A stretch of 24,971 bases of DNA from a virus: positions 1 to 24,971 of the IMG/VR virus record IMGVR_UViG_3300048068_000345, one strand, 5' to 3'. The stretch's first letter is position 1. Each line of letters opens with the position of its first letter. A program made the translations under genes and the position numbers. Below the pieces are notes generated by a model. It worked only from the letters and a program-made list of their open reading frames with translations, made no database searches and had not been told where the DNA came from. Positions 8,925-24,342 of the stretch are shown one piece after another.

Positions 8925-8926
8925 AA

Positions 8927-9576: not shown

Positions 9577-9598
9577 ACTTTCTTCTTATTACTCTTAC

Positions 9599-9627: not shown

Positions 9628-9630
9628 GTA

Positions 9631-10111: not shown

Positions 10112-10118
10112 ACATTCT

Positions 10119-10195
10119 TGGTCGGAGTATAAGGATTCGAACCTTAGACCTCTGCGTCCCAAACGCAGCGCACTACCAGACTGTGCTATACTCCG
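10119..10195 (-). tRNA. tRNA-Pro, anticodon UGG
   Basis: Acceptor CGGAGTA/TACTCCG, discriminator A, CCA encoded. Anticodon stem CTGCG/CGCAG with loop TTTGGGA gives UGG. Confidence 0.9.
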
Positions 10196-10201
10196 TATCA
10201 G

Positions 10202-10276
10202 TGGCATCCCGTAGGGGAATCGAACCCCTCTTTTCAGGTTGAAAACCTGACGTCCTAACCGATAGACGAACGGGAC
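10202..10276 (-). tRNA. tRNA-Glu, anticodon UUC
   Basis: Acceptor GTCCCGT/ACGGGAT, discriminator G, CCA encoded. Anticodon stem TCAGG/CCTGA with loop TTTTCAA gives UUC. Confidence 0.9.
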
Positions 10277-10286
10277 AAATTACATC

Positions 10287-10361
10287 AAGCAGTTTTTGGA
10301 CCTGCTTAGGTCATCCTGGGCACCATTTGCTCAATTGTTTTACAAGGGGAACAAAACCCTT
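10287..10361 (-). other. Structured spacer between tRNA-Asp and tRNA-Glu
   Basis: About 90 bp with no gene but two hairpins: AAGCAG/CTGCTT (10287-10307, 9-base loop) and AAGGG/CCCTT (10344-10361, 8-base loop). The first overlaps an alternative GACC/GGTC pairing (10299-10312), so two folds compete. Possible RNA-processing signals, a small RNA or a decayed tRNA. Confidence 0.4.
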
Positions 10362-10367
10362 TAACTA

Positions 10368-10444
10368 TGGCGCGGTTGACGGGACTCGAACCCGCGGCCC
10401 TCGGCGTGACAGGCCGATACTCTAACCAACTGAGCTACAACCGC
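10368..10444 (-). tRNA. tRNA-Asp, anticodon GUC
   Basis: Acceptor GCGGTTG/CAACCGC, discriminator G, CCA encoded. Anticodon stem TCGGC/GCCGA with loop CTGTCAC gives GUC. Confidence 0.92.
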
Positions 10445-10450
10445 TTGTTA

Positions 10451-10693
10451 TTATTCTCCAATATCAAGTGACAATTGACGTTCTGCATCTGCCTCTTCTT
10501 TGCGTTCTGCAATAATCATATCGACAATTTCATCAAATGATTCATAAAATTGTTCATCATCTTTCCAGAATGAGCGACACTCAGCATATGCATCAGCATC
10601 TACGAAATTCCAGTTGATTGAATAATCATCATTGAGGTTTTCTGATTTTTCAACTGAATTACGGATTTCGATTTCAAGCATTGAATAGATCAT
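10451..10693 (-). CDS. Small acidic hypothetical protein (80 aa)
   Basis: 80 residues, strongly acidic, rich in Glu, Asp and aromatics, helical with no membrane segment. Motif SINWNFVDADAYAECRSFW lies in the middle (residues 25-43), and the end QLSLDIGE is acidic. It has its own promoter (10725-10753) with a leader of about 25 bases and a GAGAG site before ATG 10693. The stop is 7 bases before tRNA-Asp, so both may share a transcript. Function unknown; small acidic early phage proteins often bind host factors, which is only a general analogy. Confidence 0.6.
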   Translation of the reverse strand: MIYSMLEIEIRNSVEKSENLNDDYSINWNFVDADAYAECRSFWKDDEQFYESFDEIVDMIIAERKEEADAERQLSLDIGE

Positions 10694-10724
10694 TGTGATT
10701 CTCTCTTATCGTTTCTATACATAC

Positions 10725-10753
10725 TTTATAGCATGATAGAAATAGATTGTCAA
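10725..10753 (-). promoter_or_regulatory. Early-type promoter, variant spacer
   Basis: TTGACA (10748-10753), 17 bp, TATAAA (10725-10730). Unlike the main family it lacks AACGAATCACT and instead shares TTGACAATCTA and ATGCTATAA with the promoter at 12784-12812. Confidence 0.8.
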
Positions 10754-10766
10754 GTATTATTTTAAA

Positions 10767-10898
10767 TTATTCGTCTAAACCTAAACACGGAATAAGAATT
10801 GACTGCTTACAATTATCTGGATATGCAATTGCCGAAACAACGACCGGCATACCCACCATAAAGAACGAAATAATAATAAAAGATAGTAATAGTTTCAT
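10767..10898 (-). CDS. Small secreted two-cysteine peptide (43 aa)
   Basis: ATG 10898 with AGGATT upstream; stop TAA at 10767-10769. Residues 1-25 form a classic signal peptide: MK, a hydrophobic core (LLLSFIIISFFMVGMPVVV) and a small-residue cleavage site (SAIA, cleavage probably near residue 25). The mature part would be about 18 residues with two cysteines (Cys30 and Cys38) that could form a disulphide in the periplasm. It lies between tRNA-Tyr and the promoter at 10725. Function unknown. Confidence 0.6.
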   Translation of the reverse strand: MKLLLSFIIISFFMVGMPVVVSAIAYPDNCKQSILIPCLGLDE

Positions 10899-10915
10899 AA
10901 GTTATAATCCTAATT

Positions 10916-10999
10916 TGGTGGGCGACCCTGGAATCGAACCAGGCGTGCGTCTCCGCGAGGGAGTTACAGTCCCCTGCCACACCTTGCGGCCTGTCGCCC
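10916..10999 (-). tRNA. tRNA-Tyr, anticodon GUA
   Basis: Acceptor GGGCGAC/GTCGCCC, discriminator A, CCA encoded, long variable arm. Loop CTGTAAC gives GUA. Confidence 0.92.
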
Positions 11000-11010
11000 A
11001 ATATTTTATG

Positions 11011-11214
11011 TTAGTCTAAAAATTCAATCATTTTTAGAATACGGGTGCGGTGCTCTTTATCGCTGACAATGTTCTCCATCATTTCTTCAATGGTAGCGTC
11101 TTCGGCATCAATATCGTTTAACCATCCATCAATATTTAATGGATCGTCCTCTAAATTTTCACGTTCATACACTTCGTCTGCTAATAGTCTTTCTAATGCT
11201 TCAAAGTCTGTCAT
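11011..11214 (-). CDS. Small acidic hypothetical protein (67 aa)
   Basis: 67 residues, very acidic, predicted helical (EALERLLADEVYERENLE and TIEEMMENIVSDKEHRTRIL). No membrane segment or metal motif. The ribosome binding site is weak. It lies between two tRNA genes, with its stop 11 bases before tRNA-Tyr. Function unknown. Confidence 0.55.
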   Translation of the reverse strand: MTDFEALERLLADEVYERENLEDDPLNIDGWLNDIDAEDATIEEMMENIVSDKEHRTRILKMIEFLD

Positions 11215-11251
11215 TTTAATTCATTGCCTATTTTTGTTTCATTTTAATATT

Positions 11252-11342
11252 TGGTAGAAGTGGGTGGATTCGAACCACCTCAAAGGCGCTAATCTGGCGC
11301 AAAGAGCATATAAGACTCCTCTGACTACCAAGTCTCACTTCC
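11252..11342 (-). tRNA. Atypical long-variable-arm tRNA, anticodon UAU
   Basis: Acceptor GGAAGTG/CACTTCT, discriminator A, CCA encoded, T arm GGTGG-TTCGAAT-CCACC. The anticodon stem GGAGT/GCTCT has two wobble pairs and loop CTTATAT, giving UAU (Ile codon AUA). Yet the variable arm is long (hairpin GCGC-cagatta-GCGC), as in Leu/Ser/Tyr tRNAs, and the D arm is unusually short. From the D loop to the anticodon it aligns best with tRNA-Leu. Amino acid identity is uncertain and it may be degenerate. Confidence 0.6.
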
Positions 11343-11349
11343 AATTTGT

Positions 11350-11426
11350 TGGTGCTCCCGGTAGGACTCGAACCTACGACCGACCCGTTATGAGCGGGTG
11401 GCTCTAACCAACTGAGCTACAGGAGC
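11350..11426 (-). tRNA. tRNA with CAU anticodon (Met or Ile2)
   Basis: Acceptor GCTCCTG/CGGGAGC, discriminator A, CCA encoded. Anticodon stem ACCCG/CGGGT with loop CTCATAA gives CAU. The G1:C72 pair argues against an initiator. Elongator Met and lysidine-modified Ile2 (AUA) cannot be separated by eye. Confidence 0.88.
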
Positions 11427-11434
11427 ATTATTTC

Positions 11435-11509
11435 TGGAGCGGGTAAGGAGAATCGAACTCCTGTCTAAAGGTTGGAAACCTACCGTAATAACCACTATAC
11501 GATACCCGC
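11435..11509 (-). tRNA. tRNA-Gly, anticodon UCC
   Basis: Acceptor GCGGGTA/TACCCGC, discriminator T, CCA encoded. Loop TTTCCAA gives UCC. The anticodon stem GTAGG/CCTTT has one T-T mismatch. Confidence 0.85.
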
Positions 11510-11517
11510 GGTTTATT

Positions 11518-11697
11518 TTATCTTTCTACTAAAGGAGTAGCAGCCTGTGAATCATGATAGTCACCACTTACATAGTAATCACGATAAGCAACCTCTTTGA
11601 CCATTATACCGTTCTTCATACGATATGTAACAATTTCTCTACGAATGACACCAGTAGTATCAGCATCAAATGCTGCTTTAAATGGTCCTTCTGCCAT
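11518..11697 (-). CDS. Conserved small phage protein (59 aa)
   Basis: ATG 11697 with a strong AAGGAG 8 bases upstream and TAA at 11518-11520. The product begins MAEGPFKAAFDADTTGVIRR and contains YRMKNGIMVKEVAYRDYY, a compact strand-rich protein of mixed charge. It is in a tRNA cluster between tRNA-Leu and tRNA-Gly. The type recurs in marine T4-like phages as far as I recall; function unknown. A plus-strand frame over the same bases is its shadow. Confidence 0.65.
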   Translation of the reverse strand: MAEGPFKAAFDADTTGVIRREIVTYRMKNGIMVKEVAYRDYYVSGDYHDSQAATPLVER

Positions 11698-11720
11698 ATT
11701 GTATTCTCCTTAATAATATT

Positions 11721-11806
11721 TGGTACTCGTACCCGGACTTGAACCGGGACGCCTCAAGGGCAACAGATTTTAAGTCTGGCGCGTCTACCGATTCCGCCAT
11801 ACGAGC
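11721..11806 (-). tRNA. tRNA-Leu, anticodon UAA
   Basis: Acceptor GCTCGTA/TACGAGT, discriminator A, CCA encoded, long variable arm. Loop CTTAAAA gives UAA. One mismatch closes the top of the anticodon stem. Confidence 0.9.
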
Positions 11807-11815
11807 ATATTTCAA

Positions 11816-12076
11816 TTAGATGATATAATCATCGTGTTCATTTTCCCATTGACTAATGGCATTCCTTAGACCCATCGCCAACCAATCACCACCTGACATA
11901 TCAAGCATTTCGCTCCATTGTTCAACAACTTCATCAATTTGCTCACGTTCCAATTCATCAGGTGAATCTACACCAAAGTGTTCCTGAATTAATCCAAATG
12001 CCCATTCAGTAACTTCACCTTCTAACCAATCAAGCATTTTGTGTGGTCGATGAATTTCAAATTTATCTTCACTCAT
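11816..12076 (-). CDS. Hypothetical acidic protein (86 aa)
   Basis: The start is set at ATG 12076, which has GGAGG at the right spacing and overlaps the upstream stop as ATGAGTGA; a frame from further upstream would ignore that site. 86 residues, acidic, helical, with three Trp-containing helices (MLDWLEGEVTEWAFGLIQEHF; EVVEQWSEMLDM; DWLAMGLRNAISQWENEH). No recognised motif. Translation is coupled to the membrane protein upstream, suggesting a shared task. Function unknown. Confidence 0.6.
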   Translation of the reverse strand: MSEDKFEIHRPHKMLDWLEGEVTEWAFGLIQEHFGVDSPDELEREQIDEVVEQWSEMLDMSGGDWLAMGLRNAISQWENEHDDYII

Positions 12077-12431
12077 GTTCGCCTCCATTTCCACGTCCGG
12101 TATACTTACGACCAGACTGTAATAATTTGTTTAGGGACTCAGGGTTTTTTTCTGCTTGACGGAAGGTAACTGCAGTAATTGTAATGCCACTAATTAAAAA
12201 AATATGAAACGCTGCACTAATACCAAAAGCAAACATACTACCTACCATTACTGCGAATATGCCACTCCAAATAAAGAATAGGGACTGAAATACCATATGT
12301 CCTACCATTGGATCTAAATTGCGTAGTGGTGATTTTTCAACTGTCATTACACTATCCCACATTTCTTTGGGTAGTTTAAAAAGAGTTGTTAGAGTTTTTT
12401 CCCACCCAATTGGCTTATTAGAGGGTTTCAT
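12069..12431 (-). CDS. Small membrane protein, two helices
   Basis: 120 residues with two adjacent membrane helices (about 45-66 and 68-88, MVFQSLFFIWSGIFAVMVG and an alpha-helical IFLISGITITAVTF segment). The N-terminal part is amphipathic and the C-terminal tail is basic, so both ends probably face the cytoplasm. AAGGAG sits 5 bases before ATG 12431. The end overlaps the next gene by 8 bases. It is early-region and not next to lysis genes, so a holin is not supported, though two-helix holins exist. Function unknown. Confidence 0.65.
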   Translation of the reverse strand: MKPSNKPIGWEKTLTTLFKLPKEMWDSVMTVEKSPLRNLDPMVGHMVFQSLFFIWSGIFAVMVGSMFAFGISAAFHIFLISGITITAVTFRQAEKNPESLNKLLQSGRKYTGRGNGGEHE

Positions 12432-12451
12432 TTTCTTCTCCTTATTTAATT

Positions 12452-12528
12452 TGGCGGTCCCTATAGGATTCGAACCTATGACCTACTGCTTAGAAGGCAG
12501 TTGCTCTATCCAGCTGAGCTAAGGAACC
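12452..12528 (-). tRNA. tRNA-Arg, anticodon UCU
   Basis: Acceptor GGTTCCT/AGGGACC, discriminator G, CCA encoded. Anticodon stem ACTGC/GCAGT with loop CTTCTAA gives UCU, reading AGA/AGG. Confidence 0.92.
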
Positions 12529-12539
12529 GTTATTCTTAA

Positions 12540-12755
12540 TTAGTATACTAACTGGAATCCATCTACCGGACTTTGGTTCCAACCACGTGCTTCTGCATAT
12601 ACTTGAATAATATATTTAAGTGTGGTTCCCTGAGGCCAGGTTGTACTTTGTTTCCAAGCCCACATATCCATTTCAACCATAAGTGATTGTTGACCTTGAC
12701 AAGTTTCAGCATTAACCTTGTTTGATTCGTCCCAAACCATTTTTGCATCTGACAT
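12540..12755 (-). CDS. Hypothetical protein (71 aa), Trp-rich
   Basis: 71 residues with five Trp and a WAWKQSTTWPQGTTLKYIIQ core, soluble, probably a small alpha/beta fold. AAGGAAC precedes ATG 12755. The promoter at 12784-12812 lies about 30 bases upstream, so this is the first gene of the tRNA transcription unit. Another frame over the same bases is a shadow. No function recognised. Confidence 0.58.
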   Translation of the reverse strand: MSDAKMVWDESNKVNAETCQGQQSLMVEMDMWAWKQSTTWPQGTTLKYIIQVYAEARGWNQSPVDGFQLVY

Positions 12756-12783
12756 AGTGTGTTCCTTTTTATCTTATATACAA

Positions 12784-12812
12784 GTTATAGCATATTGATT
12801 CTAGATTGTCAA
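12784..12812 (-). promoter_or_regulatory. Early-type promoter before the tRNA cluster
   Basis: TTGACA (12807-12812), 17 bp, TATAAC (12784-12789). Variant spacer shared with the 10725 promoter (ATCTA and ATGC). Likely drives the 71-residue gene and the first tRNAs. Confidence 0.8.
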
Positions 12813-12815
12813 CCT

Positions 12816-12947
12816 TTAATTTCCAAAATAGTTAATTAAATTCCACCATGTATATTCGGTTCCCTGACCAAAGTCCATCCAGCCCAATGCAAATACACCC
12901 ACCAAAACATAGCAAATAAATTCATCAAGTTTTTCACTATTACTCAT
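12816..12947 (-). CDS. Small membrane protein (43 aa)
   Basis: ATG 12947 overlaps the upstream stop as ATGAGTAA; TAA lies at 12816-12818. One membrane segment (about residues 10-24, FICYVLVGVFALGWM) follows a charged N-terminus, then a Trp/Tyr-rich tail (TEYTWWNLINYFGN). Translational coupling to the 55-residue gene supports it. Function unknown. Confidence 0.55.
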   Translation of the reverse strand: MSNSEKLDEFICYVLVGVFALGWMDFGQGTEYTWWNLINYFGN

Positions 12948-13107
12948 GTGGCGCATACTCCGCTTCAAATTGATCCATTGAGTTTTTCTTTTCATCTAAC
13001 ATAAGTTCTAAAGTGTTGATTGCCATACGCTTTTCATCACTTGCACCTTCTGTTAAGTTAATAATTGCATTTTCTAGAACTTTTATATCGTTTAGAACAT
13101 CATTCAT
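12940..13107 (-). CDS. Small helical protein (55 aa)
   Basis: ATG 13107 with AGAGGT upstream and TAA at 12940-12942. The product begins MNDVLNDIKVLENAIINLTE and is an amphipathic, probably coiled-coil helix with an acidic end. Promoter 13136-13164 lies about 30 bases upstream, making a two-gene unit with the overlapping 43-residue membrane protein. Function unknown. Confidence 0.6.
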   Translation of the reverse strand: MNDVLNDIKVLENAIINLTEGASDEKRMAINTLELMLDEKKNSMDQFEAEYAPHE

Positions 13108-13135
13108 AATAGACCTCTTTTGTTATTACTATTAT

Positions 13136-13164
13136 GTTATACAGTGATTCGTTCTAAATGTCAA
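13136..13164 (-). promoter_or_regulatory. Early-type promoter, main family
   Basis: TTGACA (13159-13164), 17 bp, TATAAC (13136-13141), with core GAACGAATCACTG. The -35 lies inside the last codons of the gene at 13154. Confidence 0.82.
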
Positions 13165-13861
13165 GATATATTTTGTTTAACCAATCAAAATCATTTATTT
13201 TTTGTAGAGTTCCTGGCGAATCAACATAAAATTTACCAAAGTCTTCTCCCATCTCTGCACCGATAGAAATTAATTCATGATGTTCAATGGGCAATGGTGA
13301 TTTCCAACGTTCAAGCCTTGATTGTATATCATCAGTTGCCACTCCACTTGCTAGTTTAGCGCATTCTCTAAACGCACCTTTCCATGCATTAAATGGAGTC
13401 GTTGCAAATCTAGTTTCATTTGAAGGTGTATCTATACGATAATATGGATAGCCAAGTTTTGCTACACCAGTAGTTACATCAACTATTTTTGTGGAACTTT
13501 TAACAAAGAATGAATTACGATTAAATAATTTAACACCGCCATATCCTGAAAGTTCACCCGTTGCTGGGTTTAATGCTCTCCAAACGTGCGTACATTGCGT
13601 CTGTGGTACCGCAGGATATACATCTATACTATCTGATGGTATATATGAAAAATCAAAATCATCAATTATCCAAGCATCGCCATCTACAACATAAAAGTTT
13701 TCAGTTAGACTTTGTTCTGCGCAAGCACGGTGTGCAGCATATACTCCTTCGATATCAGCAGTATTAATAACTCGCTGGTTCTTGCCAACCTTAGATAATA
13801 TTCTGTTTAAATTGTTATCTGAATAATCATCCTGGTAAGTAAGATAGAATACATCTATCAC
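13154..13861 (-). CDS. Possible glycosyltransferase-like protein
   Basis: 235 residues starting with GTG at 13861, which overlaps the upstream stop (GTGA); no nearby in-frame ATG exists. Near the N-terminus are a VFYLTYQDD strand and, at 55-62, FYVVDGDA. The DGD at 60-62 is placed like the DxD nucleotide-sugar/metal site of GT-A glycosyltransferases, after an AAHRACAEQS helix. The later part (YGGVKLFNR, 103-111; TTPFNAWKGAFRECAKL) also resembles GT-A proteins. Substrate unknown; possible roles are modification of phage DNA or of a surface glycan. The family match is by eye only. Confidence 0.5.
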   Translation of the reverse strand: MIDVFYLTYQDDYSDNNLNRILSKVGKNQRVINTADIEGVYAAHRACAEQSLTENFYVVDGDAWIIDDFDFSYIPSDSIDVYPAVPQTQCTHVWRALNPATGELSGYGGVKLFNRNSFFVKSSTKIVDVTTGVAKLGYPYYRIDTPSNETRFATTPFNAWKGAFRECAKLASGVATDDIQSRLERWKSPLPIEHHELISIGAEMGEDFGKFYVDSPGTLQKINDFDWLNKIYLDI

Positions 13862-14190
13862 GCCACTTGGATCTCAGGGGGCTTACCGTTATCACTTACG
13901 CCTAAGATACCTTCTGGATCACCTAGCCAAAATCGAATATTTTTATCATCATCAAGTCTTAGGTCTTGTCCTTGTGACCATCTGCCATGCTGCATTAGTA
14001 CCCAATCACCAACTTTTACATCGTTCTGATCTGGTCCCACTGCATATACTTCTGCCCATCGTGGTCTAATACCTCTATCGCCTGCTTCTGTTGTACTATC
14101 ATCTAAATGAATAAGTCCATTTAGTTTTTTAAATCCTGTGTCCATATTAGTAAGAATAATTTTATTTCCAATTGGAGATAACGTTTTCAT
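13858..14190 (-). CDS. GroES-like co-chaperonin (gp31-like)
   Basis: 110 residues from ATG 14190, chosen for its AAGGAATT site; a longer reading upstream has no such site. Length equals T4 gp31 (111) rather than longer host proteins. It starts with the GroES-type strand LSPIGNKIIL, followed by a Gly/Thr-rich mobile-loop region (about 17-40) and the core RWAEVYAVGPDQNDVKVGDWVLMQHGRW (split here: 44-59 and 60-71). Known role: capping the host GroEL cage to fold phage capsid proteins. It overlaps the next gene by 4 bases. Confidence 0.8.
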   Translation of the reverse strand: MKTLSPIGNKIILTNMDTGFKKLNGLIHLDDSTTEAGDRGIRPRWAEVYAVGPDQNDVKVGDWVLMQHGRWSQGQDLRLDDDKNIRFWLGDPEGILGVSDNGKPPEIQVA

Positions 14191-14200
14191 TATTAATTCC

Positions 14201-14626
14201 TTATTTTGATTTTTTAGATTTGTTTTTCTTTGTTTCATCTGCTTTAATAAAATTGCCGTCAGCATCTTCTACCCATTCTGGATCAGTATTTTCTGCTACT
14301 GGTTCTGAAAAAGGTTCTGGTAATGGTCCGGGACTAACCTCTTGAATTATAGGCTCTTCCCAATCATCTTCCATTGGTTTATCTTGCATTTTAGGCGCTG
14401 GGGTATCATCTAACTTGATACTTGCAGATTTGACTGCGTTTGGATTATTACGATTATAATGTTCTCTTGCTATTTCATCAGCACTTTTCATAACTCTGCC
14501 TGCACGACCAAGCTTATCGCCACGTGCATTAGAAGCGGTATTACCTACTGTTATATTTTTATCTTGTTGCGCTAACAATTTACCAATATCAATATTAACA
14601 CCTCGCATACTTTTATAATTTTTCAT
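14201..14626 (-). CDS. Conserved T4-like phage protein, disordered tail
   Basis: 141 residues. Residues 1-60 are conserved in type (MRGVNIDIGKLLAQQ, NARGDKLGRAGRVMKS), while 70-141 are Pro/Glu/Asp-rich and end in a run of Lys, probably disordered. I recognise the N-terminal pattern from marine T4-like phages, where it is annotated as unknown or structural. GAAGG precedes ATG 14626. It lies 10 bases before the gp31-like gene. Confidence 0.65.
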   Translation of the reverse strand: MKNYKSMRGVNIDIGKLLAQQDKNITVGNTASNARGDKLGRAGRVMKSADEIAREHYNRNNPNAVKSASIKLDDTPAPKMQDKPMEDDWEEPIIQEVSPGPLPEPFSEPVAENTDPEWVEDADGNFIKADETKKNKSKKSK

Positions 14627-14639
14627 ACCTTCGCCTTCT

Positions 14640-15191
14640 TTATCTAAGGAACTCTTTCCAATCTAGGTCATAGTGAATACTATTTATCTTATGTACCCCT
14701 ATCAAGTATAGCACATAACTTGCTACACTACTTCCGCGACCAACTCCCCATACTATTTTATTTTCTTGCATATAATCTACTAAATAAATCATATATCGTA
14801 ATAGCATAATCATATCACGCTTTAAGAATTCTGTTAATTCTTCATTGACTCTTATTAATTCCTGTTCAGTATTACATAATTTTTTTACGTAATCAGTCAC
14901 ATCAATTGTTTTATATTCATCTGGCATAAACCATTTTGATTGATTGTCTTTATCGAACTCTGCCAATTCTGTAGTTATTATTTCAATGGGTTTTATAGTA
15001 TTAATGTTTAAATAATTACTTTGAATAGCAGTATTGTATTTTTCAAAATCTTCATGCCACTCTACACATTCTATAGATTCAATATTTTCTTGGTTGTATA
15101 GCATTTCATATAAGTCATGCCGATTATATACAACTCTACCATATTGATCTTTTAATGAATCAATCCGTGACGATTTTTGGCTGCCAATCAT
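14640..15191 (-). CDS. DnaE-like fragment with GRGSS motif
   Basis: 183 residues. About 125-183 match the part of bacterial DNA polymerase III alpha just before the active site: a helix (MIYLVDYMQENKIVWG), then GVGRGSSVASYVLYLIG (149-165) and a YDLDWKEFL end, which parallels GPGRGSAAGSLVAYLLG and YDLLFERFL in DnaE. In DnaE the catalytic PDFDxD follows directly, but this protein stops there, so it cannot be a polymerase alone. The first 110 residues are not recognised. It may be a split or remnant polymerase, or a protein using this fold for another task. It overlaps the upstream gene by 32 bases. Confidence 0.6.
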   Translation of the reverse strand: MIGSQKSSRIDSLKDQYGRVVYNRHDLYEMLYNQENIESIECVEWHEDFEKYNTAIQSNYLNINTIKPIEIITTELAEFDKDNQSKWFMPDEYKTIDVTDYVKKLCNTEQELIRVNEELTEFLKRDMIMLLRYMIYLVDYMQENKIVWGVGRGSSVASYVLYLIGVHKINSIHYDLDWKEFLR

Positions 15192-15828
15192 GTATTTTTA
15201 TAACCTCACCTGGATCATCAACAAGTTTTAACTCACCGAGGATTACTTGTTGTATTTCATTTAATACATTATCATATTCTGGTGGGTTTGTCAAGTCTGT
15301 TTCTTCATTTACCTCATAATCAATTGTTTCAGGTGATTGTCTAAACCACCATGGTGTATCATAATAATATTCTTTTTGACCGATCCATGTTTCTAGACTC
15401 GGCAATGCAGGATAATCTTCATCAGCATATGTATAACTCATTGTGGGATTTTCAAACTTACTTGTAATCTTCACACTTATAATATCTATATGTCCATCTG
15501 CGATTGTATTAAGTTTAGCATGTAGTGTCATAGCGATAATGTCACTTGTAGGAACATATGGGAGCATAACTATCTTATTATTTATTTCACTTAATTTTAT
15601 TGGTGCTGATTTATGCGTAAAAATGCTTTGATGTAATACTTCTTCTAAGAAGAATTTTACTTTTAGAAATGCTGCATTTCCCATAGCAATATCTCCGGTA
15701 CACCAAACAAACTCAATTTCTGCATCAAAAATTTCTGAATATAAAGATGCCTCCGCTTGTATTAATGTCGTACTAAACATTGTCTTAAATGTTGTAAAAC
15801 TATTTGCTGTAACTACTGTATCGGTCAT
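15160..15828 (-). CDS. Hypothetical phage protein (222 aa)
   Basis: 222 residues, soluble, acidic; N-terminal half of strand and helix with FVWCTGDIAMGNAAFLKVKF, C-terminal half with Trp/Tyr-rich loops (YYYDTPWWFRQSPE) and an acidic helix before the end. No motif recognised. Start at 15828 overlaps the upstream gene by 4 bases (ATGA). Part of the long MazG-gp31 run. Function unknown. Confidence 0.6.
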   Translation of the reverse strand: MTDTVVTANSFTTFKTMFSTTLIQAEASLYSEIFDAEIEFVWCTGDIAMGNAAFLKVKFFLEEVLHQSIFTHKSAPIKLSEINNKIVMLPYVPTSDIIAMTLHAKLNTIADGHIDIISVKITSKFENPTMSYTYADEDYPALPSLETWIGQKEYYYDTPWWFRQSPETIDYEVNEETDLTNPPEYDNVLNEIQQVILGELKLVDDPGEVIKIHDWQPKIVTD

Positions 15829-16196
15829 TTTTTATAACTCTCTTCTAGTTCTATTTTATTTGTATTCGCTATACCTTCATATAGCCAATATACGTTTTCA
15901 TCAATATCAGTATCATTTTCATCAGTATAAAAATCATACATGAAAAACACCTTAGGAAATAACTTACTTAATGGTTTAATAAAATCAATTAAATTAATGT
16001 GGCGACAGTTGGTTATAAATCTTAATACATCATGTCCGTTATCCCAAGCCATATCTTCAAAATTAAGACAATCATTATTGGATTTGGTCCATGAATCTTT
16101 TATATATTCATAAAATTTAGTAGTTTCTATATCTGTTCCATCTACTGTTATACTATGATATGTTTTAATAATACTTTCATTCTTCGTCTGGGTCAT
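15825..16196 (-). CDS. Hypothetical acidic protein (123 aa)
   Basis: 123 residues, acidic, with Asp-rich loops (DENDTDIDEN, near 94-103) and hydrophobic stretches (LFPKVFFMYDFY). GGAGAAG lies before ATG 16196, inside the end of the upstream gene, overlapping by 20 bases. No motif recognised. Function unknown. Confidence 0.58.
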   Translation of the reverse strand: MTQTKNESIIKTYHSITVDGTDIETTKFYEYIKDSWTKSNNDCLNFEDMAWDNGHDVLRFITNCRHINLIDFIKPLSKLFPKVFFMYDFYTDENDTDIDENVYWLYEGIANTNKIELEESYKK

Positions 16197-16425
16197 CTAC
16201 ATCTTCTCCTACAACTAGGGATTCTGGGGTGCGACCGCTAATGATATCAAATCGCTGCCGTTCTAACCGCTCAGTTAATTCAAATTGCAGCATTTCTAAT
16301 ATACCCTGCAATTGTTCAACCGCATCGTCTAGCCCCATTGAATGAGCAATGTTCATTTTTTTCTGAACATCAGTCATTTTTGTGTCTAGTTCCTCTTCGG
16401 AGAGACTCTTATACTCTTGAAACAT
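16177..16425 (-). CDS. Coiled-coil protein (82 aa)
   Basis: 82 residues, with residues 5-58 a long charged helix likely to form a coiled coil (SEEELDTKMTDVQKKM, LQGILEMLQFELTERLERQR) and an acidic, disordered tail ending DVDDPDEE. AAGGAAT precedes ATG 16425. It follows MazG by 47 bases. Small coiled-coil proteins of this type are common in T4-like phages; function unknown. Confidence 0.6.
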   Translation of the reverse strand: MFQEYKSLSEEELDTKMTDVQKKMNIAHSMGLDDAVEQLQGILEMLQFELTERLERQRFDIISGRTPESLVVGEDVDDPDEE

Positions 16426-16472
16426 TATTTTATTCCTTATGTCTCTTTCCTATAGTTATTTAGTATAAGAAT

Positions 16473-16829
16473 TTATTTAATGAATTGTTTTAATTCTGGT
16501 GCTTTCCATCCTTCTGGCTTTAATACCTTACCATCTTCACGTTTAATTACTTTACCTGTTTCTGGATTAATCTTTGCAAAGTTAGTATTCATTACTTCAT
16601 TCCATGCTGCTTCACTATCCCAGCCTGCTGCACGAATAGCGCCCATAGTAACAACTAAAATATCAACTAGCGCATCAAGTTGCTCTACTTTATCTTCTGC
16701 AACAACTGCGTCTACTAATTCACCATACTCTTCATCAATTAATCCCAGATACATTTTATAATTTTCTGGAGATGATGGTTGGTCACATGCAGTTGCAAAG
16801 CGTTCAATATCATTAAATGGATTTGTCAT
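16473..16829 (-). CDS. mazG: MazG-like nucleotide pyrophosphohydrolase
   Basis: 118 residues of the all-alpha NTP pyrophosphatase fold. Metal-binding motifs: DEEYGEL (E34 and E37, giving ExxE) and LDALVDILV (D52, D56). Such enzymes cleave nucleoside triphosphates to monophosphates and pyrophosphate. Cyanophage MazG proteins hydrolyse dNTPs, and early proposals linked them to (p)ppGpp; the substrate here is not shown. GAGGT precedes ATG 16829. It has its own promoter and heads the long run of genes to 13154. Confidence 0.85.
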   Translation of the reverse strand: MTNPFNDIERFATACDQPSSPENYKMYLGLIDEEYGELVDAVVAEDKVEQLDALVDILVVTMGAIRAAGWDSEAAWNEVMNTNFAKINPETGKVIKREDGKVLKPEGWKAPELKQFIK

Positions 16830-16862
16830 ATTACCTCATAAGTTTATTTAATTATAGATTAC

Positions 16863-16891
16863 ATTATACATGATTTATTAATTAAATGCAA
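16863..16891 (-). promoter_or_regulatory. Promoter before mazG
   Basis: TTGCAT (16886-16891), 17 bp, perfect TATAAT (16863-16868). The start would be near 16856, about 27 bases before ATG 16829. The spacer is unlike the AACGAATCACT family, so it probably uses ordinary host sigma70. Confidence 0.65.
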
Positions 16892-16903
16892 TAGTTAATA
16901 TTT

Positions 16904-17059
16904 TTATTTTCTATTTTTTGCCTGATTATGTTGAACTGTATTGCGGGCTACATTGCTATTTTTTGTTATGAGAAGAATTGTATCATTCTCATCCACAACG
17001 ATATAATACAAAACCCTATGTCCTGTTTTCGTTCTACGTTCTTCAATTCTTGTTGTCAT
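16904..17059 (-). CDS. Small basic hypothetical protein (51 aa)
   Basis: The start is placed at ATG 17059, 13 bases after the putA stop; a longer reading would need a TTG at 17104 inside putA. 51 residues, basic, with a TKTGHRVLYYIVVDENDTIL strand pair and a basic, Asn/Gln-rich tail. Last gene of the COQ4-putA group. Function unknown. Confidence 0.5.
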   Translation of the reverse strand: MTTRIEERRTKTGHRVLYYIVVDENDTILLITKNSNVARNTVQHNQAKNRK

Positions 17060-17072
17060 ATTATCTTCACTC

Positions 17073-19916
17073 TCATTTTGATAATAATACAGTATTGCCT
17101 CCAATTGCAGTGGTATTGATACTCACATGCTTCTCCCAAACATATGATTTTAAATAATCTGGTCCGCCCGCTTTGGGTCCAGTACCTGACAATCCAATGC
17201 CACCAAATGGCTGTGTTTCTACTATTGCTCCAATTTGATCCCGATTGATGTAAATATTACCAACATTAACATTATTAATAATCCCATCATAAAAAGATGC
17301 TATTCTGGAATGAATACTCATGGTTAAACCAAATTTCGTTTCATTAATATATGATATAATGTCATCTAGTTCATCAACATCATATTCGTATACATGCAAC
17401 AGAGGTCCGAATATTTCCTTATCAAAATATTTTTTATAATCCGATACTAGATAAGCACTTGGTGGAATTGTTAAAGCAGGTAATTCAACACCATTTCTTG
17501 ATCTTGTCGCTATCAGTATTTCATTTTCTTCTAATACGGATATCCTATTTTGTATACTTCTAAATGCATCACCATCAATGACACGTGTAACATCAGTATT
17601 CAAATCATCACTGAACCCCATCTGCACAACTTTAATAGCATTTCCCAACATCTTTAAAATAGTATTAGCATTATCTTTTTGTACAAATAAAAATCTTGTT
17701 GCACTACAACGCTGTCCTGCACTATCAAATGCACCGTGTATTACATCTTTAACTAATTGTTCTGGTAAACACGTACTATCAGCAATCATACAATTAATGC
17801 CGCCAGTCTCTGCAATAAACGGTATAATAGGTCCGTCACGGTCTGCCAACACACGTTGAATACGCTTTGCAGTTTTATGTGAACCGGTAAATGTTATACC
17901 TTTAATTCTTTCGTCTGCTACTGCAAGTTCTGCATCCTTGGGATCAGTGGGACATAATCTAATAGCATAATCTGGTATACCGCATTCAAGCATACAACTA
18001 ACTGCAGTCTCAGCAACCTTAATTGTTTGTGGTGCAGATTTTGCTAATACAGTATTACCTGTTAGCAATGCTGCTATAATTGGTCCTACAAAAATAGCAA
18101 GTGGAAAATTCCATGGTGCTATAACCATCCACACACCGTGTGCCTGATATGTAGTTGTATTAATTTCGCCTGTATAACTTAACGTATCGCCTTGATTATA
18201 TAATTTTTCTGCTTGTTCAGCATAGTATCTAATAAAATCTATGGCTTCACGAACTTCGCCAATAGCGTTAGGATATGTTTTATTTGCATGTGTAACTAAA
18301 TTACTTGCTGCTTGTTCCATATGTGTTTCCAAATGATCAGCATATTCAAGAACTACTTTCTTTCGTTCATTGAATGTAGTTTTACTCCATTCTCTGTGAC
18401 CTTCATCTAGCACGGTAATACTATCGTTTACTGACAATTGTTCAGGTACAATAAATTCATAACTTGGTCTCCCCACCAGATATTCAATCCAGCTAGGGTC
18501 AGTTAAATCATATCCACGACTATTCTTACGATTGGAGTACAAATCTTCATATGTTGGTAATTTTTCTCGTTCTTTTTTTGCTTCTATAAATGGATCCACC
18601 AGTTGTTGATTAAAAACAAAACTAGTGTTTGCTCCATTTTCTAATAATCTACGGACAAGATATGCAAGTAAATCTTTATATTCGCCTACAGGTGCATACA
18701 CTCTAATACTAGTATTGTATGTTTTTCGTAGATGATCAAATAGTCCATCCCCCATACCATATAATTTTTGAAACTCAAATTCACCTCCTAGGGTTTCGTG
18801 GTAAAAATATATGGCTGCCACGGTGAATGGATTATGTGTGGCATATGCAGGCTTGATATACTCAGATAACATAATTTTTCTTGCGCATGCAAGATAACTT
18901 ATGTCGGTATATTCTTTACGTGAGAATACAGGATAGTGTAAGCCTTCTTGTTGTGCTATCTTTATTTCTGTATCCCAATATGCCCCTTTAACTAAACGGA
19001 CACATATCGATGTATTGGATTCTTCTGCAATATGTTCTAATGTATCTATTGCCCAGAACGCACGTTTTTGATATGCTTGGACTGCGAACCCAATTGTGTT
19101 CTCTTTAAATTTATGTGTTAATAATAATTCTTCTAATACCATTATACTTAAATCTAAACGTGATGCCTCTTCAGCATCAATAAACATAGTGGTATTTTTA
19201 TCTTCACAAAGTCTGGCAATTGCTGCTAATTTTGGGACTAAATGATGTATTACATCAGCATGATTTCTTAACTCATATCTTGGATGAATAGCACTTAGTT
19301 TAATACTAATGCTATCTTCAAACCATGCTGCAGCCTGTATATACTTTTCATAGTATGCGTTGGCATCTGGCCAATTTGTTGCTGCTTCGCCCAACATATC
19401 AACTGAGTATGAGTATGATTTATCTACTGCAATTTTTGCATCTTCAATGGTTTCGCCCATTACAAATATATTGCCCATTCGTTTAACAGATTCTTTAACA
19501 ATCTTACGAACTGTAGGCCAACCTAATCTACTAATTAAATTATTATATGCTGCAAAACTCTGTGCTTGAGTTAATGCTTTGCCACTTAAAGTCGCATAGA
19601 AACTATTTTGTGACAAAAGGTTCCAATCAGCATTTGTTAGTTTTTCTTTAATTAATTTATCTTGCGTTTTTTTATCTGGCGTTCTTAGTAAACATTCACA
19701 TAAAGTCATTAACGCAATGCCTTCATTGCCAGATAATTCATATGCAGTCATAAGTTGATGTATCATACTAGATTCATTAAATGCAGAATTAATTACATTT
19801 GATGTTTCTAAAATTTCGGTTCGGTCTTCTTTTGTAAGTCTTGAAGCAAGCATTAATTTTGGAATTAATTCTAGTTCATCCATTCTATAATATATATTAT
19901 GTTGATAAATTCTCAT
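17073..19916 (-). CDS. putA: PutA: bifunctional proline dehydrogenase/P5C dehydrogenase
   Basis: A complete 947-residue PutA. Residues about 1-110 are a helical N-terminal domain. The PRODH barrel has SIKLSAIHPRYE (204-215), VRLVKGAYWD (306-315), YATHN (358-362) and LVRRLLENGANTSFV (420-434) with the substrate-binding Arg pair 422-423. The aldehyde dehydrogenase half has PWNFP (601-605), FTGS (676-679), ETGG (703-706), catalytic Cys737 in SAGQRCSA, FGPLL (836-840) and QPFGGIGLSGTGPKAGG (902-918). It oxidises proline to glutamate in two steps, using FAD with electrons to ubiquinone, then NAD. It is the short, enzyme-only type (about 1000 residues), without the DNA-binding ribbon-helix-helix. 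ETGGQN has become ETGGIN; the catalytic residues are kept. ATG 19916 overlaps the COQ4-like stop by 4 bases. Confidence 0.93.
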   Translation of the reverse strand: MRIYQHNIYYRMDELELIPKLMLASRLTKEDRTEILETSNVINSAFNESSMIHQLMTAYELSGNEGIALMTLCECLLRTPDKKTQDKLIKEKLTNADWNLLSQNSFYATLSGKALTQAQSFAAYNNLISRLGWPTVRKIVKESVKRMGNIFVMGETIEDAKIAVDKSYSYSVDMLGEAATNWPDANAYYEKYIQAAAWFEDSISIKLSAIHPRYELRNHADVIHHLVPKLAAIARLCEDKNTTMFIDAEEASRLDLSIMVLEELLLTHKFKENTIGFAVQAYQKRAFWAIDTLEHIAEESNTSICVRLVKGAYWDTEIKIAQQEGLHYPVFSRKEYTDISYLACARKIMLSEYIKPAYATHNPFTVAAIYFYHETLGGEFEFQKLYGMGDGLFDHLRKTYNTSIRVYAPVGEYKDLLAYLVRRLLENGANTSFVFNQQLVDPFIEAKKEREKLPTYEDLYSNRKNSRGYDLTDPSWIEYLVGRPSYEFIVPEQLSVNDSITVLDEGHREWSKTTFNERKKVVLEYADHLETHMEQAASNLVTHANKTYPNAIGEVREAIDFIRYYAEQAEKLYNQGDTLSYTGEINTTTYQAHGVWMVIAPWNFPLAIFVGPIIAALLTGNTVLAKSAPQTIKVAETAVSCMLECGIPDYAIRLCPTDPKDAELAVADERIKGITFTGSHKTAKRIQRVLADRDGPIIPFIAETGGINCMIADSTCLPEQLVKDVIHGAFDSAGQRCSATRFLFVQKDNANTILKMLGNAIKVVQMGFSDDLNTDVTRVIDGDAFRSIQNRISVLEENEILIATRSRNGVELPALTIPPSAYLVSDYKKYFDKEIFGPLLHVYEYDVDELDDIISYINETKFGLTMSIHSRIASFYDGIINNVNVGNIYINRDQIGAIVETQPFGGIGLSGTGPKAGGPDYLKSYVWEKHVSINTTAIGGNTVLLSK

Positions 19917-20455
19917 AATCTTTTACTAGCCTTACTTCTTTTAAATAATGTCCTTTCAATATATCTATTGTGGCGAAGTATGTCTAAATTTATATCAAAT
20001 ATCGCACGAATTTCACCCATTGTTTTATTTTTATAAGGGTCAAAATCCACTTGATGTATATTTTTAGTCCGACGAGTCTTACCATAAATAATACCCATAT
20101 CAAACGCTATTAGTTCTCTTTCGCCAAAACGATATATTTTTGGAAATATATTCGATGCATAGTATTTATACAATGCCACATGCCAGTTTTTTAATGACGT
20201 TGCGTTGCCCATTGTATAACCTATAACAAATGCTTCATCTTGATTTAATAATCCTCTGCCCAATAATGCGTGAATGCAATCGTGTGATTCTAAACATATC
20301 GCACCTGGTAGACTAAATGGCGATTTGGGATTTTCTATTATCTTTACATACCAACTTATATCTATCGAGTCGCTGCCAGGTAAGGTATTTAATACAGAAA
20401 TGAGAGTGTCATTGCCGTTTTCTATTCCAGGATTCCAATCACTGTAGTGTAACAT
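19913..20455 (-). CDS. COQ4-like protein, ubiquinone-biosynthesis family signature
   Basis: 180 residues. Residues 58-74 hold HDCIHALLGRGLLNQDE, that is HDxxH-x11-E with H58, D59, H62 and E74. This exactly fits the metal-binding signature of COQ4, even to the HxLLG context. It is followed by a helix (AFVIGYTMGN) and, near 142-160, a KTMGEIRAIFDI segment like the COQ4 C-terminal region. COQ4 is needed for ubiquinone synthesis and is reported to act on the ring during its oxidative decarboxylation. The stop overlaps the putA start (ATGA), so translation is coupled. No good ribosome binding site precedes ATG 20455, which lies just after a terminator hairpin. The family call is by motif only. Confidence 0.6.
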   Translation of the reverse strand: MLHYSDWNPGIENGNDTLISVLNTLPGSDSIDISWYVKIIENPKSPFSLPGAICLESHDCIHALLGRGLLNQDEAFVIGYTMGNATSLKNWHVALYKYYASNIFPKIYRFGERELIAFDMGIIYGKTRRTKNIHQVDFDPYKNKTMGEIRAIFDINLDILRHNRYIERTLFKRSKASKRL

Positions 20456-20481
20456 AATAATATTTAGTCAGAATAAAAAGA

Positions 20482-20505
20482 ACCCGACTACCTAAGTAGC
20501 CGGGT
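20482..20505 (-). terminator. Rho-independent terminator upstream of COQ4-like gene
   Basis: Stem ACCCG-A-CTAC / GTAG-C-CGGGT with one mismatch and a 4-base loop. The minus strand continues TTCTTTTTATT. It should stop transcripts arriving from 20608-21139, leaving COQ4-putA to start anew or to depend on read-through. Confidence 0.75.
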
Positions 20506-20525
20506 CAAGTTTGCGAAGAGGACTA

Positions 20526-20546
20526 TAGGATGAATCATTCATCCTA
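20526..20546. promoter_or_regulatory. Perfect 21-bp palindrome
   Basis: TAGGATGAAT-C-ATTCATCCTA: two perfect 10-bp arms around one base, in the gap between the gene at 20608 and the terminator. As RNA it gives an 8-bp stem with loop ATCAT. It could be an operator for a dimeric regulator or an RNA-processing hairpin. Confidence 0.6.
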
Positions 20547-20607
20547 AAGTACAGAGAAATCAATCCCTGCATTAGTATTTAAAATAAAATTAAATAAAGA
20601 TAACTAT

Positions 20608-20940
20608 CTATAAAACTTTTTCTTGTAATAATGAATATACACACTCAATTACTTGTGTTGAGAACCCACCAATGTGCCAGTTATATTCCCCCATTGGAGT
20701 TGAAGGCTGTTTCCAATCATAAATTGTCGCAACAACAACTTCTTCTATAAAACTTCCAGGCGCATCTTGTAATTGAATTACAAATTCCAATGTCCATTCA
20801 ACTGTGACTTTATCATTTGACGTATATGTTGGTTCACCAAAAGCAGCAACAATATCAGCATATGTAGTATTAACATATCCCTGTAGTGCAGTACCATTGA
20901 CATTAACACTGGCATCATTTGTAATATTAATAATTTTCAT
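20608..20940 (-). CDS. Conserved phage protein (110 aa)
   Basis: 110 residues with the pattern ALQGYVNTTYADIVAAFGEPTY... then VATIYDWK and GEYNWHIGG, which I recognise as a recurrent small protein in T4-like marine phages and some bacteria; function unknown. It looks like a compact alpha/beta protein. AGGAG precedes ATG 20940, which overlaps the upstream stop as TAATG. Transcribed from 21111-21139 and ended by the terminator at 20482. Confidence 0.68.
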   Translation of the reverse strand: MKIINITNDASVNVNGTALQGYVNTTYADIVAAFGEPTYTSNDKVTVEWTLEFVIQLQDAPGSFIEEVVVATIYDWKQPSTPMGEYNWHIGGFSTQVIECVYSLLQEKVL

Positions 20941-21089
20941 TATACATCTCCTACCTTGAGATTTACTCGCTTTACACCGTTACGCTTTCCAATATAATAG
21001 AAGAACTTCTTTGCGTTTTCATACGTTTTGAATTTTTTTGTCTTTTTAGGATAGTTGTAGTAGCCATATTCAACAGTAAACATAATCAT
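20940..21089 (-). CDS. Small basic protein (49 aa)
   Basis: ATG 21089 (or 21083), TAA at 20940-20942. The product begins MIMFTVEYGYYNYPKKTKKF, is strongly basic and aromatic, and ends VKRVNLKVGDV. It lies about 15 bases after the expected start of promoter 21111-21139 and is coupled to the next gene (TAATG). Size and charge suggest nucleic acid or protein binding; function unknown. Confidence 0.6.
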   Translation of the reverse strand: MIMFTVEYGYYNYPKKTKKFKTYENAKKFFYYIGKRNGVKRVNLKVGDV

Positions 21090-21110
21090 TCCTTCTCAAC
21101 TTATACACTC

Positions 21111-21139
21111 TTTATATAGTGATTCGTTTAAGATGTCAA
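21111..21139 (-). promoter_or_regulatory. Early-type promoter, main family
   Basis: TTGACA (21134-21139), 17 bp, TATAAA (21111-21116), with core AACGAATCACTA. Downstream AGAGTGTATAAG matches the promoter at 23167. Confidence 0.87.
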
Positions 21140-21146
21140 GTATTAA

Positions 21147-21242
21147 TTATGTAATTACCATTAAAACGGCAATCGTGGGCATCAATATAAAAATTATAGA
21201 TGCCATAATAACATGAATACAATGCCAAACTGTCTTTTCCAT
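21147..21242 (-). CDS. Tiny membrane peptide (31 aa)
   Basis: ATG 21242 with a strong GGGGAGG 8 bases upstream, TAA at 21147-21149. The product begins MEKTVWHCIHVIMASIIFIL and is almost entirely one membrane helix. The ribosome binding site is among the best in the window, which supports translation. It follows the zincin-like gene by 23 bases. Function unknown. Confidence 0.5.
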   Translation of the reverse strand: MEKTVWHCIHVIMASIIFILMPTIAVLMVIT

Positions 21243-21265
21243 AGTATTATCCTCCCCTCTTGTTA

Positions 21266-21925
21266 TTAGAAATAATTTGCAGTATATTTCATTAACTGTT
21301 TAATTTGTTTTGACTCAAGTGAAAAGTATTCCCTATAACGTTTATATACTGGGAGTTCCTCTGCGAACCTCTCAGGTCCTCTCAGCGCCTCTAGAGGCAT
21401 ATCTGTATCTCGCATCTCTGCTGCTAAATCGTGTCCATATGCCATCAATTCATGTGGATCACGCAAGTAACTGCACATTAAATCACGTTCAGTGCCACCA
21501 GCAGCCTTTAACTCAACGCCCTTCATATAACCTGATTTGTATGTAACCAACACTGTTGGATCAAATTTGTCATACTGTTTCCAATGAATAGTTTCATGAG
21601 CCAACATACGCATGATTATCTTTTTAAATGTTTTTGGTCCCCATACTTTTACTAAGTTAGTAGCGTGTAAAAATACTCTTACACTTTTACCTTCAATGGG
21701 ATCCCAATCGGCTGCAGCACTAACCCATTCATCTGGGTCTTTACGAACTGAATGGTCAGTAATAAATTCAATAGGCAAATCATCGAAATTGTTAGCATTT
21801 AAAATCTCCTCAAGTTCATCAATATCATCAACATTATTATGATCAGAAAGATATTCAGAATATTCTGAACATCCTTCATCAATCATTATTTCTACTTGGT
21901 CAAGGAAATCTAAATCAGGTTGCAT
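21266..21925 (-). CDS. Zincin-like metallopeptidase (HExxH)
   Basis: 219 residues. HETIH at 110-114 lies in a helix (MRMLAHETIHWKQYD), as in zinc peptidases, and PHELMAYGHDLAAEM (157-171) supplies a possible third ligand, E159, in a second helix. The N-terminal 60 residues are acidic. The mid region VRVFLHATNLVKVWGP could be the edge strand. No signal peptide, so cytoplasmic. A role in processing a phage or host protein is possible, but activity is unproven and some such phage proteins have lost it. Follows the 112-residue gene by 9 bases, transcribed from 22305-22333. Confidence 0.65.
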   Translation of the reverse strand: MQPDLDFLDQVEIMIDEGCSEYSEYLSDHNNVDDIDELEEILNANNFDDLPIEFITDHSVRKDPDEWVSAAADWDPIEGKSVRVFLHATNLVKVWGPKTFKKIIMRMLAHETIHWKQYDKFDPTVLVTYKSGYMKGVELKAAGGTERDLMCSYLRDPHELMAYGHDLAAEMRDTDMPLEALRGPERFAEELPVYKRYREYFSLESKQIKQLMKYTANYF

Positions 21926-23201: not shown

Positions 23202-24011
23202 TTATTCACTTGCCGCTGTTATCATTTTAATATTATTACTTATTGCAGTATTAAATTCTTCGGTAGTTTGATGTGCATAAAGCCCTTCGGACAACGCTCT
23301 ACTAAAACTAGCAGTTACGTTATCATTAAGACCTAGTTTATTACACGCTTCGTTTGTGCTGTATCCGCCACTTAGGAACACAACACGTTCTACATTGGGA
23401 AACACTGTAAGATTGTGATATAAATTGGGTGTTTCTGGTGGTGTTAGTTTGAGAATACATTTGCCTGGGAACTCGTCCAAGAACTCTTGCAAGTGATACA
23501 TAAGAGCATCTTCGACTTCACCTTTGATAGGATGGTCAATAGGTACTTCGGGTTCAATAATTGGTACAAGTCCATACTCACAAATAGTACGAGCAAGTGT
23601 AAACTGTTGTTTAAGCACAGGATGTACCATACCTAAACCGTGCACAATACTACGCATCTTAGTGCCGTAGATTTTAGGACCAATTCCATTTGTAGCAAAC
23701 TCTAACATCTGTTTTACTGGAAACTGTTTGAGTGTTCCATCTTCATCACAACCACTGTCAATCTTTAAGAATGTATCAATGCCTTTTTCGTCAAGCACGT
23801 TAACCATACCACGTGTAACTGAGTCTTGGTAAAGGATTGCTGCCCAGATGTTTTTGTCGTTGAAGTCAGGCGAGTTAACCATTCGCAAACGCATTGCATG
23901 CACTGTTTCCATTTTGTTGTGTTCGTTCCACTGCACCTGATAGCGTTCTAGTACGCCGCCTGTTGAACCACCACTGTGATCCATTGCTGCAATAAATCTG
24001 TGATCACTCAT
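23202..24011 (-). CDS. fda: Class I fructose-bisphosphate aldolase
   Basis: The start is placed at ATG 24011, with CAGGAG upstream, giving 269 residues; a longer reading runs into the upstream gene. The pattern follows the small bacterial class I aldolase of Staphylococcus (Fda, about 296 residues): FIAAMDHSGGST (6-17), GTKMRS (116-121), LVPIIEPEV (148-156), CILKLTPPETPNLY with the expected Schiff-base Lys188, LSGGYST (213-219) and ASFSRAL (234-240). It splits fructose 1,6-bisphosphate into two triose phosphates, or the reverse. It overlaps the HAD gene by 8 bases (ATGAGTGA), so the two are co-translated. Likely an auxiliary metabolic gene redirecting host sugar flux. Confidence 0.9.
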   Translation of the reverse strand: MSDHRFIAAMDHSGGSTGGVLERYQVQWNEHNKMETVHAMRLRMVNSPDFNDKNIWAAILYQDSVTRGMVNVLDEKGIDTFLKIDSGCDEDGTLKQFPVKQMLEFATNGIGPKIYGTKMRSIVHGLGMVHPVLKQQFTLARTICEYGLVPIIEPEVPIDHPIKGEVEDALMYHLQEFLDEFPGKCILKLTPPETPNLYHNLTVFPNVERVVFLSGGYSTNEACNKLGLNDNVTASFSRALSEGLYAHQTTEEFNTAISNNIKMITAASE

Positions 24012-24342
24012 ATGACTCTCCTGTTTCACGGAAGAAGTTTTCACTCCAAAACGCCTTATCATCAATCCAGATATCGTAGTTTTCTTTTTCGCCTACGCTT
24101 AGTTCGTGATGCTTTGCACCCCAAGTTACTAATTGGTTGTGTGTTAATTTGTAATAGTCTACGCCACTTACACAACCACGTGCTGTCATATATTTGATTG
24201 TGTGACCTGCATCATATAATGCGTTTACTTTTGCAATGCGTTCTGGCATTGGAATATGATTAGCATAGTCTTTCTTTCCACCACTATCTGGAATAATAAC
24301 TTCCTTACAAATGGTACCATCAATATCAATTACATATTTCAT
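24004..24342 (-). CDS. Small HAD-superfamily phosphatase
   Basis: 112 residues without a large cap: motif I VIDIDGTI (Asp6, Asp8), motif II MTARG (52-56, Thr53), and motif III DIWIDDKA (90-97, Asp94-Asp95). Small HAD enzymes of this type include sugar and capsule-precursor phosphatases and nucleotide phosphatases; the substrate is unknown. Its 8-base overlap with the aldolase gene suggests a joint role, possibly dephosphorylating a sugar product, but that is inference. AAGGAT precedes ATG 24342. Confidence 0.75.
   Translation of the reverse strand: MKYVIDIDGTICKEVIIPDSGGKKDYANHIPMPERIAKVNALYDAGHTIKYMTARGCVSGVDYYKLTHNQLVTWGAKHHELSVGEKENYDIWIDDKAFWSENFFRETGESYE

Follow-up and report, generated by a model that had tools for sequence, protein, structure and literature searches.

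An intact bifunctional PutA in marine jumbo phages and its predicted COQ4-like partner

We analysed a 24,971-base IMG/VR record (the whole stretch hereafter called the window) that carries an intact gene for PutA, the bifunctional proline dehydrogenase/L-glutamate-gamma-semialdehyde (P5C) dehydrogenase, among the backbone genes of a jumbo phage. It is likely, in our judgement, that this putA is an auxiliary metabolic gene maintained by the phage and feeding host respiration, and that in the branch to which the window belongs it would form a proline-to-quinone cassette together with a COQ4-like gene that overlaps its start.

The phage and its PutA

The window is only a fragment of its phage, whose PutA-bearing relatives reach 342 kb (two contigs of that length). 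It is syntenic with Pseudomonas phage PA5oct (286,783 bases; Arenbergviridae, Wroclawvirus), where MazG, structural, PolIII-alpha fragment, chaperonin, reverse-strand PhoH, structural, DnaJ and ClpA genes follow in the same order; PA5oct differs in having no PutA, and its proteins are ~30-52% identical to those of the window. On the minus strand of the window this backbone comprises a MazG-type nucleotide pyrophosphohydrolase gene (16473-16829), which marks the downstream limit of the putA cargo, a conserved gene of the jumbo-phage backbone (15160-15828), a DNA polymerase III alpha-like fragment gene (14640-15191) that is a backbone marker common to PA5oct, a co-chaperonin-like gene (13858-14190) at the position of the PA5oct chaperonin, two virion structural protein genes (7502-8014 and 7086-7499), a DnaJ-like gene (5896-6279) recognized by its sequence and by its position matching that of the PA5oct DnaJ gene, and a ClpA-like ATPase gene (3663-5909); a PhoH-like gene (8166-8924) lies on the plus strand, opposite to the others, as in PA5oct. 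The ClpA is closest to those of the jumbo phages Phosso, PA5oct and Atu_ph07 (43-48% identity). The PA5oct gene order, the ClpA similarity and the 342-kb PutA-bearing relatives together indicate that the window is a fragment of a jumbo myophage, and we take this phage to be marine and of the PA5oct type. A pelagiphage or a small T4-like phage was also considered as the source, and was dropped in favor of a PA5oct-type jumbo phage on gene similarity and synteny.

Several other features of the window may be recorded here. The PolIII alpha fragment is small and free-standing, carries the motif GVGRGSS, and is conserved in many jumbo phages. Ten tRNA genes, tRNA-Pro(TGG) among them, lie at 10024-12528; comparable arrays occur in close relatives, and none was present in the stretches examined of contigs L008, L010 and L148. 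A 219-aa gene at 21266-21925, with an HETIH zinc-protease-like motif and no Pfam match, is kept upstream in most close relatives and in L010. At 23202-24065 there is a class I fructose-bisphosphate aldolase-like gene (231 bits to NF003784, under the cutoff of 392) that is missing at this place in related contigs, and thus represents further variable metabolic cargo.

The putA gene (17073-19916, minus strand) is an open reading frame of 947 codons with no internal stop. A reading of this DNA made earlier from the sequence only had proposed a complete 947-residue bifunctional PutA with intact catalytic motifs (the PRODH Arg pair, and Cys737 and Glu703 of the ALDH), and both parts of that proposal held. 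The product scores 1000 bits with the NCBIfam model for bifunctional PutA (NF008869), passing the cutoff of 747, and 784 bits with the model for trifunctional PutA (NF008772), below its cutoff of 1750. One chain contains the Pfam matches Pro_dh (E 2e-79), Aldedh (E 3e-85) and Pro_dh-DNA_bdg (the alpha domain, E 2e-21); no N-terminal ribbon-helix-helix DNA-binding domain was found by the Pfam search, the chain beginning at the arm/alpha domain. Among proteins of solved structure the best match is Bradyrhizobium PutA 3haz, aligned over 10-946 with E 1e-200. When three phage and eight bacterial PutAs were aligned, Lys206, Asp247, Tyr407, Arg422, Arg423 and Glu426 of the PRODH and Asn603, Glu703 and Cys737 of the ALDH were invariant in all 11, and we take the catalytic roles of these residues to be those established in the PutA literature. 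In the window protein Arg422-Arg423 lie within YLVRRLLENGAN, Glu703 within IAETGG and Cys737 within SAGQRCSA. Domain order, compact length, catalytic residues and lack of the ribbon-helix-helix are common to the phage protein and type A bifunctional PutA (Bradyrhizobium 3haz; NF008869), from which the phage PutAs differ in being phage-encoded, in their identity of only ~40-46%, in forming a separate long-branched clade, and in a changed motif, RDQIGA.VETQPFGG, where bacterial PutA has RNMIGAVVGVQPFGG.

In the PutA tree the jumbo-phage proteins form one clade (support 100/100) on a long stem. L178, a contig from an unrelated phage, has a PutA that joins this clade (100/98), and the PutA of another, L179, perhaps does so (81/91), each on a long branch; because of these long branches, a single viral origin that includes L178 and L179 may be exaggerated by long-branch attraction. 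The highest bacterial identity seen was ~46%, and similarity points to no close bacterial group. Building a tree with viral and alphaproteobacterial proteins had been suggested along with the original proposal, and the outcome was this separate, deep clade of phage PutAs. Pairwise dN/dS among the phage PutAs is 0.08-0.18 for the whole protein and stays at 0.05-0.20 when the two catalytic domains and the alpha domain are taken singly. We regard putA as old in phages and as functionally maintained there under strong purifying selection.

The COQ4-like gene and expression signals

The gene preceding putA (19913-20455, minus strand) encodes 180 aa and shares with putA a 4-base ATGA overlap, as had been noticed in the sequence beforehand. 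Its protein has an HDxxHx11E motif at residues 58-74, kept in all homologues compared. COQ4, a C1 decarboxylase of the CoQ pathway that depends on Zn, bears this HDxxHx11E metal motif (PMC9774615, PMC7615680). Direct identification of the 180-aa protein in Pfam and the PDB gave no match, Pfam Coq4 (PF05019) failing even at E 5-10, and the AlphaFold models were poor (pLDDT 37 and 44) and yielded no meaningful structural match. A profile built from seven COQ4-like sequences of phages and bacteria nevertheless matched the COQ4 profile with an hhalign probability of 95.7% (E 1e-8, score 64.1), the score of 20 column-shuffled control profiles reaching at most 17.3, and the alignment covers both the metal motif and a C-terminal motif. 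On this profile comparison the gene is a remote homologue of COQ4. With COQ4 (PF05019; Alr8543, PDB 6E12) it has in common the HDxxHx11E metal motif, the C-terminal motif and homology at the profile level; it differs in that the phage protein is shorter (180-200 aa) and under Pfam detection, and in that its gene is translationally coupled to putA.

One reading that we find plausible without favoring it is that no functional link joins the COQ4-like gene to PutA, the gene being independent phage cargo that came to lie beside putA by chance. COQ4-like genes do occur in two phage contigs with no full-length PutA (L185, 1-600, 136 kb; L186, 5962-6540, 45 kb), which makes the family a wider phage cargo gene, and in the other jumbo sub-branches L008 and L010 there is none beside PutA. 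Some alphaproteobacteria have clear homologues (lowest E 7e-60), and in those examined the gene is not beside putA, the neighborhoods showing no common operon. Against chance adjacency stands L179, a fragment of a phage genome that has an RNR-like gene and whose PutA is 39% identical to that of the window and is followed by a COQ4-like homologue (43%), again with a 4-base overlap, in the order opposite to that of the window; the overlap thus occurs in two very different phages. A strong PutA match was also present in six of the seven alphaproteobacteria with a clear COQ4-like homologue, vs. 121 of 385 overall; both lineage and genome size confound this comparison.

An intrinsic terminator-like hairpin (20481-20506, minus strand), conserved in L002, L006 and L009, lies shortly before the COQ4-like gene, and consecutive hairpins are seen at ~20480-20570. 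Paired changes within the hairpin AGGATGAAT.ATTCATCCT in those three contigs suggest a conserved RNA structure. A late-promoter-like element, ACTAAATA (20461-20468, minus strand), is placed 6-13 bases ahead of the start codon of the COQ4-like gene, and the pattern NHTAAATA is enriched upstream of window genes (9 in 60-base windows vs. 2.0 expected). Many other window genes are preceded by a repeated sigma-70-like box, AACGAATCACTATATAAAG, which the COQ4-like/putA operon lacks; near-identical copies occur upstream of 23133, 22788, 22273, 21089, 13107 and 9576, in several places with TTGACAT before them, and this box is probably an early promoter of the phage. For the COQ4-like/putA operon these signals hint at middle or late expression.

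Proposed role of PutA and its partner

PutA oxidizes proline at its FAD, giving the electrons to ubiquinone, and P5C/semialdehyde is then oxidized by NAD to glutamate. We propose that the phage would make its own bifunctional PutA during infection; at the FAD site proline would be converted to P5C, with two electrons passing into the ubiquinone pool, and in the second step the semialdehyde would become glutamate, with NADH made. Free proline, either an osmolyte or freed by protein breakdown, could in this way be turned into respiratory energy, and the glutamate could serve nucleotide, amino-acid and protein synthesis. The COQ4-like protein, translationally coupled to PutA, may support the quinone side, by synthesis or hand-off of quinone. 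Since PutA passes electrons to ubiquinone and COQ4 acts in CoQ synthesis, the pair is proposed to feed the host respiratory chain. We infer from sequence the catalysis, the quinone role, the timing and the benefit to the phage of this PutA/COQ4-like pair.

Other redox and amino-acid genes neighbor phage PutA, namely an NAD-binding reductase and a glutaredoxin (L008) and an L-piperidine-6-carboxylate dehydrogenase (L178). A bolder version of the proposal, advanced tentatively and with more doubt than belief, would have a dedicated proline-to-quinone respiratory cassette in marine phages, with a viral PutA clade and a COQ4-like protein supplying or presenting quinone, assembled at least twice and powering late infection. 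If this is true, the cassette would be the heterotroph-phage counterpart of the cyanophage photosynthesis genes.

It seems to us rather unlikely that PutA acts mainly by shifting metabolite levels, draining the osmoprotectant proline or building glutamate, with the quinone electrons a by-product. The intact chemistry also fits such a role, glutamate being the product, and neighboring cargo in the relatives is nucleotide-related (deaminase, MazG, phosphoribosyltransferase); but the recurring COQ4-like partner and the NAD-binding reductase and glutaredoxin neighbors indicate redox, and a monofunctional enzyme would be sufficient for mere proline removal. That PutA is kept for something other than catalysis, such as transcriptional control or binding, is very improbable: the trifunctional PutA of enterobacteria does repress put genes, but without a ribbon-helix-helix the phage protein should not have this repressor function, and the catalytic residues of both its sites are invariant.

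No proline transporter was identified, the sole SSF symporter found (G004/G005) not being a PutP equivalog. As a candidate PutP it failed the TIGR02121 model (37.8 bits for the G005 symporter, cutoff 515.5), and no PDB relative was found. In the 342-kb phage G005 (locus L013) this sodium:solute symporter gene (1405-2892) adjoins an IscU-type Fe-S scaffold gene (2965-3345) that is above the TIGR01999 cutoff.

PutA as phage cargo and its counterparts in other viruses

PutA is carried by about ten further IMG/VR contigs at 64-95% identity; the first scan gave ten loci, with 64-99% identity over the matched part, which a second pattern set confirmed, and a third scan added L177 (65%). At least four related phages also carry an intact PutA. 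The window aligns without a break to L002 from 12,426 to 21,922 (87%), and similarly to L004 and L009; L011 spans the downstream putA junction (93%, 13,226-17,476), and the L006 alignment begins at 16,960, crosses PutA and continues into the genes upstream of it. L140 is 99.98% identical to the window over 12 kb, but stops at 16,726, short of PutA. putA does not differ in GC from the DNA around it.

Two other contigs from relatives of the window phage, L148 and L149 (203 and 103 kb), have no PRODH anywhere, and at the corresponding site of L148 MazG comes immediately after a cytidine-deaminase-like gene. In G007, which like G005 is 342 kb long, the genes are deaminase, PutA, 224-aa ORF, MazG; the window has COQ4-like, PutA, small ORF, MazG; and G005 has PutA, phosphoribosyltransferase, MazG, preceded by genes for an NAD-binding reductase and a glutaredoxin. 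Set against the PutA-less L148, these orders mark PutA as variable cargo whose position, shortly upstream of MazG, is fixed. The small ORF directly after putA in the window (16904-17059, minus strand; 51 codons from ATG) is weakly conserved, being retained in only three relatives. The sequence-only reading had placed a small gene 13 bases downstream of putA, a spacing that is correct for the ATG at 17059 but not for the longest ORF, which starts with TTG at 17104 and overlaps PutA.

We give hardly any credence to PutA being host DNA, whether as an assembly chimera, a transduced host gene or a decaying passenger: PutA is common among bacteria and a phage relative without it exists, but at least ten independent viral contigs carry it, the alignments with L002, L004 and L009 pass both borders without a break (single-sided in L011 and L006), no bacterial PutA above the ~46% mark was found, and the gene shows purifying selection and phage-like GC. 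Assembly chimera and host contamination are ruled out by the further contigs, the selection and the border continuity; in particular, independent assemblies that cross both junctions contradict a chimeric join at either 16900 or 20455, which had been named beforehand as an outcome that would refute the proposal. The placement of PutA in a true phage genome is thus borne out by hallmark phage genes, PA5oct synteny, ten viral contigs and DNA continuity.

It had also been suggested that PutA is not an established phage auxiliary gene, and this agrees with what three sources contain: bona fide phage records in a collection of 50,697 records had no PutA, no PHROGs family covers its PRODH domain, and the open-licence literature yielded no paper that describes a phage PutA. 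PutA matches in 'Acinetobacter phage MD-2021a' records seem to come from bacterial chromosome (many other host ALDHs occur in the same set), and the mention of putA in a phage paper on Yersinia concerns host genes.

PutA is also carried by two phages unrelated to the jumbo group, the L178 and L179 already mentioned. In L178 (IMGVR_UViG_3300031646_000503, 46 kb) an L-piperidine-6-carboxylate dehydrogenase-like gene of lysine catabolism (5938-7344; 696 bits vs. a cutoff of 730) is separated by a 2-base gap from PutA (7347-10202), and a MazG gene is near PutA. The dehydrogenase-like neighbor suggests that breaking down amino acids may be a more widespread strategy among phages.

Known phage energy genes belong mostly to the photosynthesis, carbon-flux and nucleotide pathways of cyanophages. 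PutA offers a direct link from an abundant amino acid to the respiratory quinone pool, and a complete PutA kept by selection in marine jumbo phages would mean that direct feeding of respiration is also found in phages of heterotrophs. The COQ4-like protein provides a testable handle, its sole biochemically defined relatives acting in ubiquinone synthesis and its gene being linked to that of a ubiquinone-needing enzyme. New here are the COQ4-like identity of the upstream gene and the recurrence of the pair; monofunctional PRODH in viruses was already known. The PRODH encoded by Ostreococcus virus OtV5 is monofunctional, 253 aa long and closely related to proteins of the host of that virus, and a haptophyte virus also encodes a proline dehydrogenase (PMC2386258, PMC11953307). 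These differ from the phages in being eukaryotic algal viruses, with no P5C dehydrogenase described there; what they have in common with the phages is proline catabolism encoded by a virus of an aquatic microbe.
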